Source: a virus
Direction: 5' to 3' (one strand)
IMG/VR virus record: IMGVR_UViG_3300032214_000319
Coordinates: 1-24,039 of that record
DNA length: 24,039 bases
The notes under the pieces were generated by a model that saw only the letters and a list, made by a program, of their open reading frames with translations, had not been told where the DNA came from and did not search any database. The position numbers and the translations under genes are program-made. Numbering within the stretch: the first letter of the stretch is position 1; each line of letters opens with the position of its first letter. This document shows positions 1 through 17,333 of this stretch, one piece after another.

Positions 1-2
1 CA

Positions 3-1016
3 ACAAAAAAGAACGCAGTAAAGAATCCAGTAGCAGAGAAATTTGTATTCATGGATAAAACAGTTAGTATCCTAAATGTAGGATTTTCTACAGCTAAGAA
101 TGTTATTTTATATGGTCCAGGTGGTCATGGTAAATCAGAAATCACATTAGATTTCTTAAAAGCTAAAGGTATTGATCCTTTCATCCAAACTATGGGTACA
201 GGTATGACTACAGACAGATTGTTTGGTGGTCTTGACATTCCTACATTCGAAACAACAGGTAAGATTGAGTATTTAGTACACAATTCATTCATGAATCATG
301 AATATGTTATTTTCGAAGAGTTATTCGATGCACCTGATTTCATCTTAGAGCAATTGAAGGACATCTTATCATCAGGTGTATTCAGAAATGGTACACAGAT
401 ATTTCCTATCAACACCAAGTTCATCATCTGTTGTACTAACAGAACTCGTGATGAATTCTCTAAGAACATGTCATTAAAGGCATTGATGGAGCGTTTTCCA
501 TTAGAATTGAATGTTATCTGGGATAACTATACAGAAATCAGTTACAACAAGTTGCTTGAGAGCAAGTTTGGTGTTGATAATGTAGATCCAGTGATTCCAT
601 ACTTATTACAAGAGTATGCTAAGAATGGTATAACCATTTCACCTCGTGTTGCTGTTACAGCATATCAAGTGTATGATGAATGTGGTCCAGAATCATTGTC
701 ATTCATTGCAGAGTTTGCAAAGAAACCATCTTTGATCTCTGAAGCAATCAAGAAGTTTGAATCAACAATCAAGTTCAGAGAGTTGTCTGCAGCTATTACA
801 TTTAGCATCGAGACTCTAACAACTCTACCATTGGTATCTAGAGAAGATGAGCAGTTACATAAAGGTGCTATTTCAGATCTTAAGAAACAATTAGCTGATA
901 TGAAAGGCTTAACAGTGGGTGATGATGTTGTACATGTACACTCACAGCTTGTTAAAGCAGCTACATCTGCTCTTGAGAAATTTGAGAAGAACTTAACTAT
1001 TGCTTCATTTATCTAA
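3..1016 (+). CDS. MoxR-like AAA+ ATPase (5' end probably outside window)
   Basis: AAA+ ATPase of the MoxR/CobS kind, which usually works with a VWA-domain partner to remodel or activate proteins. Numbering from the ATG at 51, the P-loop GPGGHGKS lies at residues 22-29, the Walker B FEE at 88-90, a sensor-1-like CCTN at 127-130, and an arginine-finger-like MERFP at 146-150. The frame stays open from the ATG at 51 back to base 3 with protein-like codons (ending VAEKFVF before that Met), so the true start may lie upstream; the 321-residue version from 51 is the alternative. The stop overlaps the start of the VWA gene (TAATG), arguing for coupled translation. Substrate unknown. The family call is firm, the start is not. 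Confidence 0.85.
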   Translation, partial: TKKNAVKNPVAEKFVFMDKTVSILNVGFSTAKNVILYGPGGHGKSEITLDFLKAKGIDPFIQTMGTGMTTDRLFGGLDIPTFETTGKIEYLVHNSFMNHEYVIFEELFDAPDFILEQLKDILSSGVFRNGTQIFPINTKFIICCTNRTRDEFSKNMSLKALMERFPLELNVIWDNYTEISYNKLLESKFGVDNVDPVIPYLLQEYAKNGITISPRVAVTAYQVYDECGPESLSFIAEFAKKPSLISEAIKKFESTIKFRELSAAITFSIETLTTLPLVSREDEQLHKGAISDLKKQLADMKGLTVGDDVVHVHSQLVKAATSALEKFEKNLTIASFI

Positions 1017-2416
1017 TGGCAAAGTATTGGGATGATGAGTATGATGACTACTACGGTAGTTATTATGCTCCCACCTATACTCCTAAAAAGAGTAGCGGAG
1101 GTTGGAAGAGTAAGTATGGAGGAGGTGGTTGGTCTAAATCAGGCTGGTCATCATTCTCGTATACATGGGATTATGGTAGTGTTGATAACAATGATGATCT
1201 GTTTGTTAAAGATCCAGTTAATTATCTAACACCAACAGCTGCAGAGATCAGAAAGAAAGTGCATGCACCTAAGCAAACATCTATTGATACAATCAAAGAA
1301 CTAGCACGTATATGCTATTACAAAATGATTGATGAAAAAGAATATGTAGCTGAGAAGTATGCAGACTATGATAAACTAACTGAATCTGAACAAGGTGAGT
1401 ATCAACAAAAGAAAGGTCTTTACGATAGTATATTTGAGCAATTCATTCCTGGATTCTCTCCATTAGAACAAGCTATATCTATCTATTTGAAACTGAAAGG
1501 TCAATCAAGTAGAGAAGAAAGAGAAGAGAGAGATGAAGATCAAGAGATAGATCTTACTAAAAGACTTGACTTTGATAGACAGTTATATTCTGATCCAACA
1601 ATCAATGAGCAGCTAGATCTTAACGAGCTTAGTAAAGATAGAAAGATGGAGATTATGAACCATCTATCTCTTGTAGGTCAGTTTGGTAGTGAGTTCAAGG
1701 TGGAGAAAGAAATCTCTGAGAAGATAGTTGCTAACTCTGATCAGTATGCCACTATGATTATGAGAGACTACTCTCAGATTCATATGATGAATCTAATGCA
1801 GAAGGTGTATCCAAACTTTAGAAGTAAGTTCTTAACTAAAGACTTGACAGTGAATGTACCTGTTGATAGAAAAGAACAGATTCAAAAGATCATTATCCTT
1901 CTAGATTACTCAGGAAGTATGCATGAATATAAGAAACAGGTGTGGGTTAATGCTATATTAATCGACAGGTTCAGATATGTAATGAAGGGAGAAGCTGAGG
2001 TGTTCTTTAGTTATTTCGTTCATGATGCTGAAGATCTTCAGTTCCAACATATCAAGGATAGAGATGATGTAATTAGATTCTGGCAAACGTTCTCTAATGA
2101 ACCTAATGGTGGTGGTACAGCAATTGGTGATATAGTTCAATATGTTGCTGATGAAGTGATGCACAGTCATAGGTTACATAACCTAGATATAGATTTATCA
2201 GAAGAGAAACCAGAAATCTTAATCATCAATGATGGTCAAGACTCTGTTGGTACTGATGCATTTCCATACAAAGTGAATGCTATTTCATTGATGTCATTCA
2301 GTGAAGAGCTAAAAGACTTATGTCTTGCTACAGAAGGTAAACAGATTGAGGTTACATATGATCTTGAAACGTTTGCTTATTCTAAAGAGGCAGGAAAACA
2401 ACAGTTAAGAGAATAA
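1016..2416 (+). CDS. VWA-domain protein, partner of the MoxR-like ATPase
   Basis: A 466-residue protein. Residues 1-55 are low complexity, rich in Tyr, Gly, Ser and Trp. A helical middle part contains a highly charged stretch around 165-180. The C-terminal von Willebrand A domain starts near 290 and has a complete metal-ion-dependent adhesion site: DYSGS at 297-301, the Thr of GGGTAIG at 368, and the Asp of INDGQD near 406. MoxR ATPase plus VWA protein is a recurrent two-component chaperone pair (RavA-ViaA, CbbQ-CbbO, CobS-CobT are known examples), and the TAATG overlap with the ATPase supports a working pair. The target cannot be read from sequence. A clear hairpin terminator follows the stop. 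The sticky aromatic/glycine-rich N-terminus is unusual for the family. Confidence 0.85.
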   Translation: MAKYWDDEYDDYYGSYYAPTYTPKKSSGGWKSKYGGGGWSKSGWSSFSYTWDYGSVDNNDDLFVKDPVNYLTPTAAEIRKKVHAPKQTSIDTIKELARICYYKMIDEKEYVAEKYADYDKLTESEQGEYQQKKGLYDSIFEQFIPGFSPLEQAISIYLKLKGQSSREEREERDEDQEIDLTKRLDFDRQLYSDPTINEQLDLNELSKDRKMEIMNHLSLVGQFGSEFKVEKEISEKIVANSDQYATMIMRDYSQIHMMNLMQKVYPNFRSKFLTKDLTVNVPVDRKEQIQKIIILLDYSGSMHEYKKQVWVNAILIDRFRYVMKGEAEVFFSYFVHDAEDLQFQHIKDRDDVIRFWQTFSNEPNGGGTAIGDIVQYVADEVMHSHRLHNLDIDLSEEKPEILIINDGQDSVGTDAFPYKVNAISLMSFSEELKDLCLATEGKQIEVTYDLETFAYSKEAGKQQLRE

Positions 2417-2422
2417 CCAAGT

Positions 2423-2450
2423 CCCTCTGTTAACGCAGAGGGATTTTAAT
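2423..2450 (+). terminator. Rho-independent terminator after the MoxR/VWA pair
   Basis: CCCTCTG (2423-2429) pairs perfectly with CAGAGGG (2436-2442) around a 6-nt loop, followed by ATTTTAATTT. It begins seven bases after the VWA stop codon. Confidence 0.8.
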
Positions 2451-2459
2451 TTAAACATC

Positions 2460-2627
2460 ATGGTAAATAAAATCTTCATGACATTCATAATCGTTGTATT
2501 ATGGATCTTTGCATCAATTTGGTGCTTCAATCATATAAATGCCTGGATTGGGATAGGGCTGTTTATATTAGGAATATACATCTCAACAAAACAAATTTTT
2601 AATAACAATAAAAAATCAGAAGAATGA
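2460..2627 (+). CDS. Small two-helix membrane protein
   Basis: A 55-residue ORF starting MVNKIFMTFI and ending NNNKKSEE. Residues 5-24 and 28-43 are two hydrophobic stretches rich in Ile, Leu, Phe and Trp, consistent with a membrane hairpin; the tail is hydrophilic and basic. It lies just after the VWA terminator, and its TGA overlaps the ATG of the SPFH lipoprotein gene (ATGA), so the two are probably co-translated and may act together at the inner membrane. No family recognised. The overlap and the clean hydrophobic pattern argue for a real gene. Confidence 0.65.
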   Translation: MVNKIFMTFIIVVLWIFASIWCFNHINAWIGIGLFILGIYISTKQIFNNNKKSEE

Positions 2628-3427
2628 AAAAATTAGTATTATTAGCATTGGGTGTTGTATTATTAACATCATGTGAGCGTGTGGCACCAAATTATTATGG
2701 TGTATTAATGGAAAACTATGGTAAGAATGGTAAAGATGACTATTCTAAACAACAGGGGAGAGTTTCTACAATGTCTCCAGGTACAGAATTGTTTCAAGTA
2801 CCAGCATGGGAACAACGTGGTGTGTTCACTGATGAAGAAGGTAATGATCGTACATTACAGATCAAAGCAGCTGATAACACAGCATTCACATCTAAACCAT
2901 TGTATTCATATAAAGTGATTCAAGCTAAAGTGGTTGATGTTGTATTCCAGAACGCAAGACTTGGTTCAGGAGATGATTTTATGACAGCTTTACAAGATAA
3001 TGTATTAGAGCCTCGCATTTATGACATCATTAAAGAAGCATCAAGAAGTTATACAACAGATGCATTAATGGCTAATGGTGGTTCATTGAAGTTTGAGAAG
3101 TATGTTCAGGACATTGTTACTAAAGAGTTTGAGAAATCAGGCTTGACATTAATTAGCTTTAGTCTTAACTTAGATTTCTCATCAAAGGTGAAAGCTAAGA
3201 TTGATTCTAGAAACGAGGTGAATACAAACATCTCTGTATTAGATCAACAAATAGCTGAGCAAAGAAAACGTAATGAGTTAGAACAACTAAGAACAGAACA
3301 AGCAATCATTCGTTCTAGAGGATTGACTAACGAGATATTACAAGAAAGAACTATATCTAAGTGGAATGGAGTTCTTCCTTCTACATATTCAGGAGGAGGT
3401 CTTCCTTTTGTTAAAACAGTTAGATAG
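2624..3427 (+). CDS. SPFH/prohibitin (Band 7)-like lipoprotein
   Basis: A 267-residue protein with a lipoprotein signal peptide: basic MKK, a hydrophobic core, and the lipobox LLTSC with Cys17 as the predicted lipidated residue. The mature part begins with a prohibitin-like segment (VAPNYYGVLMENYG) and has the mixed alpha/beta SPFH pattern to about residue 190, then a charged coiled coil (roughly 196-235, rich in Glu, Gln, Arg). It is likely a membrane-anchored oligomer. SPFH proteins form ring-like membrane scaffolds and modulate proteases; phage versions have been proposed to act in membrane protection or superinfection effects, which is not shown here. ATGA overlap with the upstream membrane protein. 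A Bacteroidota-type promoter for the RNA locus starts immediately after its stop. Confidence 0.8.
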   Translation: MKKLVLLALGVVLLTSCERVAPNYYGVLMENYGKNGKDDYSKQQGRVSTMSPGTELFQVPAWEQRGVFTDEEGNDRTLQIKAADNTAFTSKPLYSYKVIQAKVVDVVFQNARLGSGDDFMTALQDNVLEPRIYDIIKEASRSYTTDALMANGGSLKFEKYVQDIVTKEFEKSGLTLISFSLNLDFSSKVKAKIDSRNEVNTNISVLDQQIAEQRKRNELEQLRTEQAIIRSRGLTNEILQERTISKWNGVLPSTYSGGGLPFVKTVR

Positions 3428-3430
3428 ATA

Positions 3431-3462
3431 TTTGTTTTATTAATCCCTGTGAAGTATATTTG
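3431..3462 (+). promoter_or_regulatory. Bacteroidota-type promoter driving the RNA locus
   Basis: TTTG at 3431-3434, a 20-nt spacer, then TATATTTG at 3455-3462 match the -33/-7 consensus TTTG / TANNTTTG of the housekeeping sigma factor of Bacteroidota. Initiation would fall near 3467-3470. There is no good start codon and ORF immediately downstream, so the promoter most likely serves the structured RNA and tmRNA. Confidence 0.75.
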
Positions 3463-3469
3463 CAGGGAT
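3443..3469. promoter_or_regulatory. Inverted repeat straddling the -7 box (operator or terminator)
   Basis: ATCCCTG (3443-3449) and CAGGGAT (3463-3469) form a perfect 7-bp inverted repeat with a 13-nt centre that contains the TATATTTG box. It could be an operator, or a hairpin ending the SPFH transcript. No clear U-tract follows (TAGTTATGTTTC), so a purely terminator role is less convincing. Confidence 0.45.
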
Positions 3470-3956
3470 AGTTATGTTTCATATCAATACAGTCAGTTTA
3501 AAACTCACTAGAGTGATATAAAAGATAAAATAGCTAAGCTGTGTAAAGCGTCAGAACTTATAATCTGTTAGAAGCTTGGGTTAAACATTGAATACCTGAT
3601 AGTGTGCATAACTTGTACCTTGAAAGACTATCGAAGATGCTATCAGTAACGGTAGATGTATTGAAGCCTTGAGAAAGCTTAGCAGAACAGATGAAGTTGA
3701 ATAAACGAGTGCCTGATAAAGAGGATAACACTTACACGTTAACTGCTCTTACAATACAAATGAGTTCTCAGCAAGTAGTGACTAAGTAAGAATTTATTCT
3801 TACAGTTTTTAAAGAGATGAATTAACATACCCACTACGTGACCCTACTCTTAAGTAAGCACAGGGGGCTAACCTTGAAGGCTATAAGAAAGAGGGTGCTA
3901 AATTTTAATTCAGGCAAACAGTTATACTAATCAGCTTCTGTAAAAAGTAGATTAAT
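3469..3956 (+). ncRNA. Large structured non-coding RNA (class unknown)
   Basis: About 490 nt with no plausible ORF but many complementary segments: ATATCA 3481-3486 with TGATAT 3514-3519; AGAAGCT 3570-3576 with AGCTTCT 3933-3939, a 357-nt-long-range stem enclosing most of the region; GATAGT 3598-3603 with ACTATC 3627-3632, competing with CTGATAG 3596-3602 and CTATCAG 3640-3646; AACG/AGTG 3704-3711 with CACT 3729-3732 and CGTT 3737-3740; GTAGTG 3775-3780 with CACTAC 3832-3837 enclosing the perfect hairpin GTAAGAA/TTCTTAC at 3786-3803; ACCCT 3841-3845 with AGGGT 3892-3896. It lies between a Bacteroidota-type promoter and a tmRNA. Size, phage context and linkage to a tRNA-like gene recall the ornate large RNAs GOLLD and ROOL, but I cannot assign it to either by sequence. 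Both ends are estimates. Confidence 0.6.
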
Positions 3957-4328
3957 GGGCCCAACAGGTATCGATTGCTAGTTATAGGTCTTACAATTCA
4001 GCCAGAGAGATAACTGTAAACTAAGATGAATTAATTAAATGGCAAATCAATTACTCGTGTAGTATCTCTAGGAGACAACGCACAAATCGAAGCTAACATG
4101 AACAAAGTATTCTCTTTATTAAGAGAAGAAGTTGCTGTAGCAGCCTAAACATTCAAAGATTTCTCAGTTAGATTAAACTGAGTGGTGGTTTTTTGACTGT
4201 TTACAGTCGATCCTCTTCCCAAATTTAGTAGATTATTAGGAAGTAAATAACATTAGAATCTGCAAAAAGCTGTATAAAATTGTATTATCGAAGTTAGTAA
4301 GACGAGAGTTCGAATCTCTCTGGGTCCA
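3957..4328 (+). ncRNA. ssrA: tmRNA (transfer-messenger RNA), phage-encoded
   Basis: Rescues stalled ribosomes by acting as an alanyl-tRNA and then as a short mRNA adding a degradation tag. The tRNA-like half is complete: acceptor stem GGGCCCA (3957-3963) with TGGGTCC (4321-4327, one G-U pair); D-loop-like GGTATCGAT at 3967-3975; a perfect T arm GAGAG-TTCGAAT-CTCTC at 4304-4320; and a long helix GTCTTACAATTC (3988-3999) with GAAGTTAGTAAGAC (4290-4303), two bulges, joining the 5' and 3' halves next to the T arm. The discriminator is A4328; CCA is not encoded. A tag frame ends ...LLREEVAVAA at TAA 4146-4148, followed by hairpin CTCAGTT/AACTGAG (4163-4182), as expected after a tmRNA tag. I did not check for an SmpB gene outside the window. 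Confidence 0.85.
4041..4148 (+). other. Predicted tmRNA tag reading frame (long)
   Basis: The frame ending in the Ala-Ala-stop expected of a tmRNA tag is open from the codon after TAA 4032-4034 to TAA 4146-4148. Counted from GGC at 4041 it would encode 35 residues beginning GKSITRVVSL and ending REEVAVAA. The resume codon cannot be fixed by eye: GGC 4041 and the codon after TAGTA (TCT at 4062) are both possible, giving tags of about 28-35 residues. Typical tags are nearer 10 residues. The competing frame from GCA 4042 (ANQLLV, stop) lacks the hydrophobic Ala-Ala end. Confidence 0.55.
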
Positions 4329-4465
4329 CAGCAGTTACTTGACGCAAATAGCACAGTAACAGACATTGGGTAGTTTGCATGCCACGAATGTTAAGTCCTT
4401 TCCACGCAGAGAAGGAGTTGAGTACTTATGGGAAGAAGTGTATACCAAGTTCCAATCTCAACACT
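4329..4465 (+). ncRNA. Structured 3' segment downstream of the tmRNA
   Basis: Lies between the tmRNA acceptor end and a strong terminator, so the primary transcript should include it. Complementary pieces: GTTACT (4334-4339) with AGTAAC (4355-4360); TCCTT (4396-4400) with AAGGA (4412-4416); GTTGAG (4417-4422) with CTCAAC (4457-4462), the latter enclosing GGAA/TTCC. No ORF, and no cloverleaf that I could fold. It may be a separate small RNA, or a trailer removed by processing. Confidence 0.4.
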
Positions 4466-4494
4466 AAGGCTATCAGAAATGGTAGCCTTTTTTA
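4466..4494 (+). terminator. Rho-independent terminator ending the RNA locus
   Basis: AAGGCTATC (4466-4474) pairs with GGTAGCCTT (4481-4489) around the loop AGAAAT, followed by TTTTTATTT. A stable 9-bp stem with one U-G pair and a good U-tract. Confidence 0.9.
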
Positions 4495-4527
4495 TTTGTA
4501 TTTATCAATCCTTAATAATAAACAACA

Positions 4528-4674
4528 ATGAAAAAAATTGAATTACAACCAGTGGATTTTTACCACTTCAGAAAATTAGCGTTTGCAATTAGTCTTGCAT
4601 TCGGATGTACAATGACACATGGTGTGTATATTGTAGAAGCCAGTATAGACCAACTTGAAAAGTTGGGTTATTAA
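4528..4674 (+). CDS. Small hypothetical protein, 48 residues
   Basis: ATG at 4528 after the AT-rich leader AATAATAAACAACA, stop TAA at 4672-4674. The protein starts MKKIELQPVDFYHFRKLAF, has a moderately hydrophobic centre (AFAISLAFGC) too polar and short to be confident of a membrane span, and ends with a Glu/Lys/Leu-rich helix (DQLEKLGY). It is bracketed by the RNA-locus terminator and its own terminator at 4688, so it looks like a single-gene unit. No family recognised. Confidence 0.6.
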   Translation: MKKIELQPVDFYHFRKLAFAISLAFGCTMTHGVYIVEASIDQLEKLGY

Positions 4675-4687
4675 GGAGGGGAATGAT

Positions 4688-4719
4688 GGGCTCTGTAACA
4701 AGAGCCCTTATTTCTTTTG
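4688..4719 (+). terminator. Rho-independent terminator
   Basis: GGGCTCT (4688-4694) pairs with AGAGCCC (4701-4707) around a 6-nt loop, followed by TTATTTCTTTTG. Confidence 0.85.
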
Positions 4720-4732
4720 TTTAATTTAAAAA

Positions 4733-4781
4733 CATTACACTTTTTGGTAATAATTTAATGTATTACGCTTAATGGTAATAA
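4733..4781. promoter_or_regulatory. AT-rich inverted and direct repeats upstream of the small zinc-ribbon gene
   Basis: GTAATA (4747-4752) and TATTAC (4761-4766) form an inverted repeat, and GGTAATAA occurs twice (4746-4753 and 4774-4781), in the leader between a terminator and the next start. This could be an operator or promoter region. I do not see a full TTTG/TANNTTTG pair here. Confidence 0.3.
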
Positions 4782-4795
4782 AAACAAATAAGACT

Positions 4796-4912
4796 ATGAA
4801 TAAATTTGAATGTAGTGAGTGTGGTACCAAGTACAGCTCACCAGAAACAACACCACCTCCAGGAATCAAATGGAGTGATGGTCATGTATGTACACCTAAA
4901 CCTGTAAAGTAA
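4796..4912 (+). CDS. Small zinc-ribbon-like protein, 38 residues
   Basis: A short ORF beginning MNKFECSECGTKY and ending CTPKPVK. CSEC is a CxxC knuckle and there is a later His-x-Cys (GHVC), so one zinc-binding site of CxxC...HxC type is possible. The middle is Pro/Thr rich. Its TAA overlaps the ATG of the phosphoesterase gene (TAATG), which supports a real, co-translated gene. Partner and role unknown; tiny zinc ribbons of this kind are common between larger phage genes. Confidence 0.6.
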   Translation: MNKFECSECGTKYSSPETTPPPGIKWSDGHVCTPKPVK

Positions 4913-5388
4913 TGAGTACGTATATGTTTAGTGATCCACATTTTCATCATGAGAATATGGCAAAGCGTAGAGGGTTTTCATCTGCAGAAGAGATGAATGA
5001 GCTCATTGTAAAGAACTGGAACAACACTATATCGAAAAGAGATTGTGTGTATCTTCTAGGAGATATTACAATGGAAAAGAAGCAATATGAGATCTTGTCT
5101 AGATTACAAGGAATCATACACGTGGTGCTTGGTAATCACGATCAAAAACAACATGTAAGAGAGATGTTGAAATATGTGCACAGTGTATCAGGTATTATAT
5201 ATTACAAAGATGTATGTATCCTATCACATTGTCCTGTTCATCCACAAGAACTTACATATAAGAGAGCACATTACAACATTCATGGACATGTTCATGAGAA
5301 CAGTCTTAATGATCCAAAATACATCAATGTATGTGCTGAGATGATAGATTACACACCAGTAGAATTTAATAAACTAATAAAAGTATAA
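4912..5388 (+). CDS. Calcineurin-like metallophosphoesterase
   Basis: A 158-residue compact metallophosphoesterase. Metal-binding motifs in order: SDPHFHH (Asp8, His10), GDIT (Asp51), GNHD (Asn75, His76, Asp77), SHCPVH (His106) and NIHGHVH (His124, His126, His128), which is the full two-metal set. The length fits the short phage/YfcE-like group that acts on phosphodiesters or phosphomonoesters; the natural substrate cannot be told. Starts by TAATG overlap with the small zinc-ribbon gene. Many large phages carry such an enzyme, with proposed roles in nucleotide or nucleic-acid end processing. Confidence 0.9.
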   Translation: MSTYMFSDPHFHHENMAKRRGFSSAEEMNELIVKNWNNTISKRDCVYLLGDITMEKKQYEILSRLQGIIHVVLGNHDQKQHVREMLKYVHSVSGIIYYKDVCILSHCPVHPQELTYKRAHYNIHGHVHENSLNDPKYINVCAEMIDYTPVEFNKLIKV

Positions 5389-16661: not shown

Positions 16662-17333
16662 ATGGCAAGCAAATTAGTAGGGATTGTTGGTGCAACTGGT
16701 ACTGGAAAGAGTACAGCAATTAAGCATCTAAATCCAGAAGAAACGTACATTATTAACGTTGCAAAGAAAGAGCTTCCTTTCAAGGGAAGTGAAAAGCTTT
16801 ACAACGCAGAGAACAAGAATTACAAAGAAATAGAAGATGCTAACGAGATCTCTCGTTTGTTAAAAACTATCTCTGAGAAAGCTCCTCACATTAAGAACAT
16901 TATTATTGAAGACTCTAATTACATTATGGGATTCAATATGGTGGCAAAAGCTACAGAAGTAGGATTTACTAAATTTAGTCTTATGGCTAGAGACATGGTG
17001 GATCTATTTAGAACAGCTAGACAATTACGTGATGACATCACTGTATTCTATTTAACTCACCCAGAAACTATTGAAGATGGTGGAGAGATTATAGGATACA
17101 AGATCAAAACTGCAGGTAAGTTGATTGATAACCAAGTGTTATTAGAAGGATTACTAACTGTATGTCTTTACACACTCGTAGAAGAGAACAAAGATGGAAC
17201 AGCTAGTTATCAATTTGTAACCAATCGTTATAGAAAGATGCCTGCAAAGAGTCCAGATGGTATGTTTGCAGAAACAAAAATACCAAACAACTTACAACTA
17301 GTAGTAGAAACATTAAATGATTATTATAACTAA
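16662..17333 (+). CDS. Sak4-like RecA-fold ATPase
   Basis: A 223-residue P-loop NTPase of the AAA_24/Sak4 kind found in phage recombination modules. Walker A GATGTGKS at 10-17, Walker B NIIIEDS with Glu83/Asp84, and a sensor-like VFYLTHPE near 138-145. Sak4 proteins are single-domain RecA relatives that promote single-strand annealing together with a phage ssDNA-binding protein; the adjacent gene fits that role. Start at 16662 follows the leader AAGCAAGTAAAACA and leaves the promoter at 16590-16621 upstream. The general fold is sure; the recombinase role is by family and context. Confidence 0.8.
   Translation: MASKLVGIVGATGTGKSTAIKHLNPEETYIINVAKKELPFKGSEKLYNAENKNYKEIEDANEISRLLKTISEKAPHIKNIIIEDSNYIMGFNMVAKATEVGFTKFSLMARDMVDLFRTARQLRDDITVFYLTHPETIEDGGEIIGYKIKTAGKLIDNQVLLEGLLTVCLYTLVEENKDGTASYQFVTNRYRKMPAKSPDGMFAETKIPNNLQLVVETLNDYYN

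Follow-up and report, generated by a model that had tools for sequence, protein, structure and literature searches.

A family of phage tmRNAs with long tags that probably carry an additional recognition helix

The stretch of viral DNA that we analysed (positions 1 to 24,039 of the IMG/VR record IMGVR_UViG_3300032214_000319, 24,039 nucleotides, hereafter the window) encodes a tmRNA with a tag frame of 35 codons. We consider it likely that this is a working phage tmRNA, which adds a long degron-like tag endowed with an extra recognition helix. A preliminary description made from the letters of the window had proposed a phage-encoded tmRNA with an unusually long tag, and this proposal is now well supported by ARAGORN, the Rfam model RF00023, 145 phage loci, and compensatory changes. 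The gene and its parts are located as follows.

3957-4328, + strand: one-piece tmRNA (ssrA) gene, 372 nt, CCA not encoded (ARAGORN, Rfam RF00023, relatives).
3957-3963, + strand: 5' strand of the acceptor stem, GGGCCCA, making 7 bp with TGGGTCC at 4321-4327, including G3-U70 (sequence).
3991-4002, + strand: 5' strand of the P2 joining helix (..TACAATTCAGC; cofold, conserved CAGC and GCTGTA boxes).
4006-4025, + strand: conserved box AGAGATAACTGTAAACTAAG, lying 5' of the resume codon at the position of pseudoknot 1 (pattern scans, match in phage phi14:2).
4041-4148, + strand: tag frame, 35 codons, from the resume codon GGC at 4041 to GCC at 4145, with the stop TAA at 4146-4148.
4083-4121, + strand: tag core QIEANMNKVFSLL, within the predicted helix of tag residues 10-34 (codon-level selection, AlphaFold2).
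4269-4285, + strand: 3' strand of the P2 joining helix (GCTGTATAAAATTGTAT; cofold).
4304-4320, + strand: T arm, 5-bp stem GAGAG/CTCTC and loop TTCGAAT (sequence; the five pairs covary in relatives).
4321-4328, + strand: 3' strand of the acceptor stem with the discriminator A at 4328 (sequence).
4466-4489, + strand: intrinsic terminator-like hairpin, the likely end of the tmRNA precursor (pattern scan).

Both searches suggested at the outset matched: ARAGORN called a tmRNA at 3957-4329, and RF00023 aligned end to end at 3957-4331, just over its gathering score (48 bits versus 47, E = 2.6e-16). The low score is probably caused by a divergent internal part and by a tag region longer than the model expects. 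The sequence bears out the complete tRNA-like half that had been described, with its 7-bp acceptor stem and its 5-bp T arm with TTCGAAT, as well as the end-to-end length of 372 nt. The joining helix, described as 12 bp with two bulges, finds only rough support: a bulged P2 folds, but its mean gain over shuffled controls (cofold) is only moderate, which makes it weaker evidence than the acceptor and T stems. With G3-U70 and A73 on a 7-bp acceptor, a T loop of the TTCGAnT type, and a resume-codon context, the phage RNA has, as read from its letters, the main features needed for the RNA side of trans-translation.

The frame had been thought open for up to 35 codons or slightly more; it has exactly 35 from GGC 4041 and encodes GKSITRVVSLGDNAQIEANMNKVFSLLREEVAVAA, a peptide that ends in AVAA before the stop. 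An in-frame TAA (4032-4034) lies two codons upstream, with no start codon in between. ARAGORN starts the tag 11 codons too late and reports only its last 24 residues (DNAQ...). Judging from context, first residue, spacing to the conserved box, and the shortest tags of the family, the resume codon is GGC 4041. It is preceded by TTAAAT, and the set TTAAAT, ATAAAT, TTAAAC, and GTAATT is also found before the resume codons of Bacteroidota host tmRNAs. The first tag residue is G or D (resume codon GGC, GGA, or GAC), as in many hosts. The resume codon lies 15-18 nt from the box in the 145 loci, despite tag lengths of 26-45 residues. The script that extracted the tags looked itself for certain triplets followed by a codon for G or D; among context, first residue, and spacing, only the spacing is therefore independent. 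The shortest tags (DKEQISANM..., GKDQVSANM...) leave no room for later starts like that of ARAGORN. A given frame of 35 codons would stay open by chance with a probability of ~0.06 (from composition alone), so that a single locus says little by itself, but about 145 loci retain the frame.

A tblastn search with the 35 residues retrieved 29 Flavobacterium psychrophilum phages, with 68.6% identity over the full tag; the annotated records of these phages have no feature at the tag site. A relative with a 38-residue tag, not annotated as a tmRNA, is present in the Cellulophaga phage phi14:2 (Crassvirales, Steigviridae). When IMG/VR was scanned twice with patterns of the upstream box, 30 and 113 stretches came out and, apart from one truncated record and a few matches due to chance, all of them translate into the same type of tag. 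The final set contains 145 phage loci, with 97 distinct DNA tags and 92 distinct peptides of 26-45 residues. They share one plan: the upstream box, a host-like resume context, a Q-x-x-A-N-M-x-x-V core, and usually an end made of a hydrophobic residue followed by A-A. In terms of sequence, the box AGAGATAACTGTAAACTAAG is a hallmark of this family of long-tag phage tmRNAs. ARAGORN called 12 of the motif-bearing stretches of one scan set, and RF00023 was over its cut-off in 25 of the 33 large relatives and below it in the other 8. Standard tools misplace the tag start of long-tag phage tmRNAs or miss the genes altogether, and phage tmRNAs are undercounted as a result.

Some members of the family deserve mention in their own right. 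The tmRNA of phi14:2 (locus L082, 4031-4500) is found by ARAGORN with a truncated tag. That of FPSV-S29 (locus L083, ~4475-4950) is missed by ARAGORN, and its record has no tmRNA annotation. One record of 105 kb, IMGVR_UViG_3300025853_000041, has two tmRNA genes with different long tags of 40 and 42 residues, at ~57 bits each (L086, 1151-1270, - strand; L112, 9936-10061, - strand). In the record that holds locus L128 (G127), weak RF00023 matches and T-arm-like fragments are spread over 5 kb near a long-tag tmRNA (66249-71275); they could represent a cluster of tRNAs or else a tmRNA lacking a recognised 3' half.

The tRNA-like ends could be paired by a script, acceptor and T arm together, in 127 of the 145 loci, with G3-U70 in 126, the last one being a false pairing. 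Among the 18 loci that fail this strict test, several are truncated and others have an apparently full sequence. When only distinct complete copies are counted, G3-U70, the alanine identity pair, is present in 89 out of 89, on 17 different acceptor stems, and both partners of a pair have changed at every position of the T stem and at positions 4-7 of the acceptor. The pairing of acceptor and T arm is thus kept in relatives through compensatory changes, next to a frame that has no ordinary start codon, as the tmRNA reading of the preliminary description implied. These data bear on the idea that the tmRNA has decayed and that the conserved frame overlapping it is simply a small gene of the ordinary kind. 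Such a gene would be open and conserved at the protein level, as the frame is, but the nearby upstream stop of the window leaves it no start codon, 88 of 141 relatives likewise lack an in-frame start before the upstream stop, and the tRNA-like ends covary and keep G3-U70. With no conserved start codon and a stop close upstream, we rejected this idea as exceedingly improbable.

The centre of the tag is its most constrained part. In an alignment of 60 tags, Q15, A18, N19, M20, and A35 are invariant, and V23 and A34 nearly so. The N- and C-terminal linkers vary and occur in different combinations around the core, which gives the tags a modular look. Over 77 distinct 14-codon cores, the Q, A, N, and M are invariant while third codon positions vary, with synonymous variety for A (GCT, GCA, GCC, GCG), N (AAC, AAT), and the nearly invariant V (GTA, GTT, GTG). 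The pN/pS of these cores is 0.42 in frame, versus 0.79 and 1.09 in the other two frames, and versus a mean of 0.83 when columns are shuffled (0 of 200 shuffles as low). The test is weaker for 30 closely related 35-codon tags (0.53, versus a shuffled mean of 0.86 and minimum of 0.44), and the N-terminal third of the 35-codon tags has a pN/pS of 0.78, so that selection is firm for the core and less so for this third. Hence, the conservation of the frame 4041-4148 as protein, which had been proposed as a check, is seen in the relatives and is clearest in the 14-codon core. The conserved bases could in principle serve an RNA structure and the peptide be incidental, since the nucleotide sequence of the tag region, too, is well kept in close relatives. 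Yet, the codons of conserved residues change synonymously, neither of the other two frames retains the signal, and tag length varies while the frame and the C-terminal A are kept. The synonymous changes led us to reject conservation of RNA only, which we regard as very improbable.

AlphaFold2 places a helix at tag residues 10-34, with a mean pLDDT of 86-87 for residues 11-30, weak evidence in that it is a model of a 35-residue peptide. The hydrophobic moment of the core is 0.35, versus 0.24 when shuffled. There is no other occurrence of the core in the 3.1 Mb of DNA examined, the tmRNA site is the sole match of the tag profile in 33 phage records, and the tag matches nothing in Pfam, PHROG, or PDB. 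We rejected mimicry of a protein by the tag, for want of a second core in the phages and of a match in these databases.

Binding sites are typically short motifs that stay conserved while the linkers around them vary. This pattern, together with the precedent of the altered tag of Mesoplasma discussed below, leads us to favour an added recognition element, and the conserved helical core makes likely the earlier suggestion that the long tag carries an extra signal. The extra residues might instead be a passive spacer in a working phage tmRNA, with ClpXP recognising the tag as a common degron by its C-terminal xAA. The C-terminal A of all tags, the A-A of nearly all, and the wide variation of linkers and length (26-45 residues) fit this view. 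However, in a spacer one would not expect Q, A, N, M, and V to be kept over 77 distinct cores under protein-level selection, and hosts manage without such an extension. We find a passive spacer rather unlikely.

The phage tags are markedly different from those of the potential hosts. A tmRNA was matched in 114 of the 118 Bacteroidota genomes sampled, and 64 of the 67 host tags that ARAGORN could read have 9-10 residues (the remaining three were apparently misread). The 35 residues of the window tag are thus unusually long, as initially stated relative to the ~10 residues of most tmRNAs. Each of the 64 short host tags ends in LAA (36), MAA (27), or YAA (1), and each has a Y or F among the three residues that precede this end. 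An aromatic residue occurs there in only 11 of the 145 phage tags, among which VAA is the commonest end, followed by LAA, IAA, AAA, MAA, MVA, LVA, and rarer forms. The window tag is not of the host type, i.e., 9-10 residues with an aromatic followed by [LM]AA. The suggestion that the phage marks proteins with another tag than the host is therefore supported by both lengths and ends. Otherwise, host ssrA (RF00023) and phage tmRNAs have much in common: ends with G3-U70, a T arm, a probable P2, xTAAAT before a GGC or GAC resume codon, a first residue that is often G or D, and a C-terminal xAA. They differ in the tag, which in the phages has 26-45 residues, a QxxANMxxV helix, and mostly VAA, and in the different conserved box that replaces the host pseudoknot 1.

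A search of 198 Bacteroidota genomes with the tag profile, run without positive control, gave no match, and the upstream box had only 8 matches in bacterial genomes, none with a tag frame. Based on this profile search, and with the same caveat on its control, we rejected the idea that the tag comes from a host. One host genome (G104) has a second weak tmRNA, which was also discarded because, by eye, it is a host-type sequence with a short tag (...GENNYALAA). The loss of the host aromatic and [LM]AA, with VAA as the commonest end, could also mean that the tag is a protective label or a decoy, diverting tagged proteins from host proteolysis or occupying host ClpX or adaptors. Against this, the xAA end, part of the ALAA read by ClpX (PMC3985003), is mostly kept. 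We give this protective or decoy role little credence, as we do the passive spacer.

The window is very probably from an environmental crAss-like phage of Bacteroidota, because the portal protein of phi14:2 was matched in all 33 large tmRNA-bearing records (23-60% identity excluding phi14:2 itself) and 15 of these encode an AAA protein 81-93% identical to that at 16662-17330 of the window. The portal evidence comes from these relatives of the 24-kb window. In the gut phage crAss001 (~99.7 kb read), there is no tmRNA call, no box, and no core. The first part of the window (1-3427, + strand) encodes close together a MoxR-type ATPase, a Band-7/SPFH protein, and a VWA-like protein whose match lies below the curated cut-off; VWA and SPFH genes are also present in crAss001. 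Upstream of the tmRNA (3443-3690, + strand), we found no convincing gene; with a terminator-like hairpin (3443-3469) and blocks conserved in up to 30 matches, this region may hold a further small RNA. Between tmRNA and terminator (4330-4489, + strand), a foldable stretch (z = -1.86) with ~23 blastn matches could be a second small RNA or a trailer. Just 3' of the tmRNA (4528-4674, + strand), a small ORF of 48 codons (MKKIELQPVDFYHFRKLAF...) is covered by ~37-44 blastn matches among the loci collected.

None of the 33 large phage records encodes SmpB, and none encodes a ClpP over the cut-off, with one sub-threshold ClpP-like stretch in G132. We thus rejected phage-encoded SmpB or ClpP; the SmpB and proteases of the host must be used. 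Charged tmRNA and SmpB enter stalled ribosomes and add alanine and then the tag, the C-terminus of which is read by AAA+ proteases (PMC3985003). There are strong reasons to infer trans-translation by the phage tmRNA. It would be charged with alanine by the host AlaRS via G3-U70, and the SmpB and EF-Tu of the host would deliver it into ribosomes that have stalled on broken mRNAs. The ribosome would then switch to the resume codon GGC 4041, and the trapped protein would gain an alanine and the 35-residue tag. Trapped proteins in infected cells would probably get a label other than that of the host. This tag keeps a ClpX-type C-terminus (...AVAA) and would insert an amphipathic Q-x-x-A-N-M-x-x-V helix that is absent from host tags. 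The helix is most likely an added recognition element, through which the handling of tagged proteins in the infected cell, or the protease or adaptor in charge of it, would be altered. A broader scenario, which we put forward tentatively and hold to be somewhat less probable than its opposite, is that environmental crAss-like phages rewrote the tag into a motif-bearing signal of 26-45 residues, giving tagged proteins a fate chosen by the phage (protease, adaptor, or compartment) and relabelling the proteome in infection.

Long-tag tmRNAs occur in isolates that can be grown, namely Cellulophaga phage phi14:2 and the Flavobacterium phages of the Fpv1/FPSV group. With these, ~90 distinct tags, and tags unlike those of the host in length, end, and helix, the question of why phages carry tmRNAs becomes testable. 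Tagged proteins could be sorted by their tag, revealing which proteins are tagged, when, and with what fate. A new tag with its own recognition partner might, in addition, be put to use as an orthogonal degron.

Phage tmRNAs and long tags are already known elsewhere. The long helical-core family itself is apparently undescribed in the open literature: we found no description of 26-45-residue tags with a QxxANM core in crAss-like phages in open-access publications, most subscription papers being outside the search. Hudson and colleagues listed ten phage tmRNAs (PMC4131195), and one is known in the Cellulophaga phage Calle (PMC8776804). In work on the marine OM43 phage Melnitz, a census counts 402 phages with a tmRNA, ~2.3% of phages, and the phage ssrA is proposed to keep the hijacked machinery running or to mark proteins of the host for recycling (PMC9004378). 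The Melnitz tmRNA differs from the family described here in being of the two-piece permuted, alphaproteobacterial type. The tmRNAs of mycobacteriophages of the Wildcat group are also phage-encoded, and that of Wildcat is its most highly expressed lytic gene (PMC7474061). EniyanLRS, a phage of the Wildcat type, has an annotated 22-residue tag, AVDTDVDFAMWEAELASDLVAA, which ends in VAA, and another mycobacteriophage member has a tag of ~12-13 residues; a mycobacterial tmRNA sequence was used as search probe only. These phages have actinobacterial hosts, shorter tags, and no QxxANM core. The tags of Mollicutes end in AFA, and their bacteria lack ClpXP. They are not known to share a core motif with the phage tags. 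Like the phage tags, that of the Mollicute Mesoplasma florum (mf-ssrA) has an unusual length and sequence, and it provides a precedent for the use of another protease: this altered tag is read by Lon in place of ClpXP (PMC8138137, PMC3985003).
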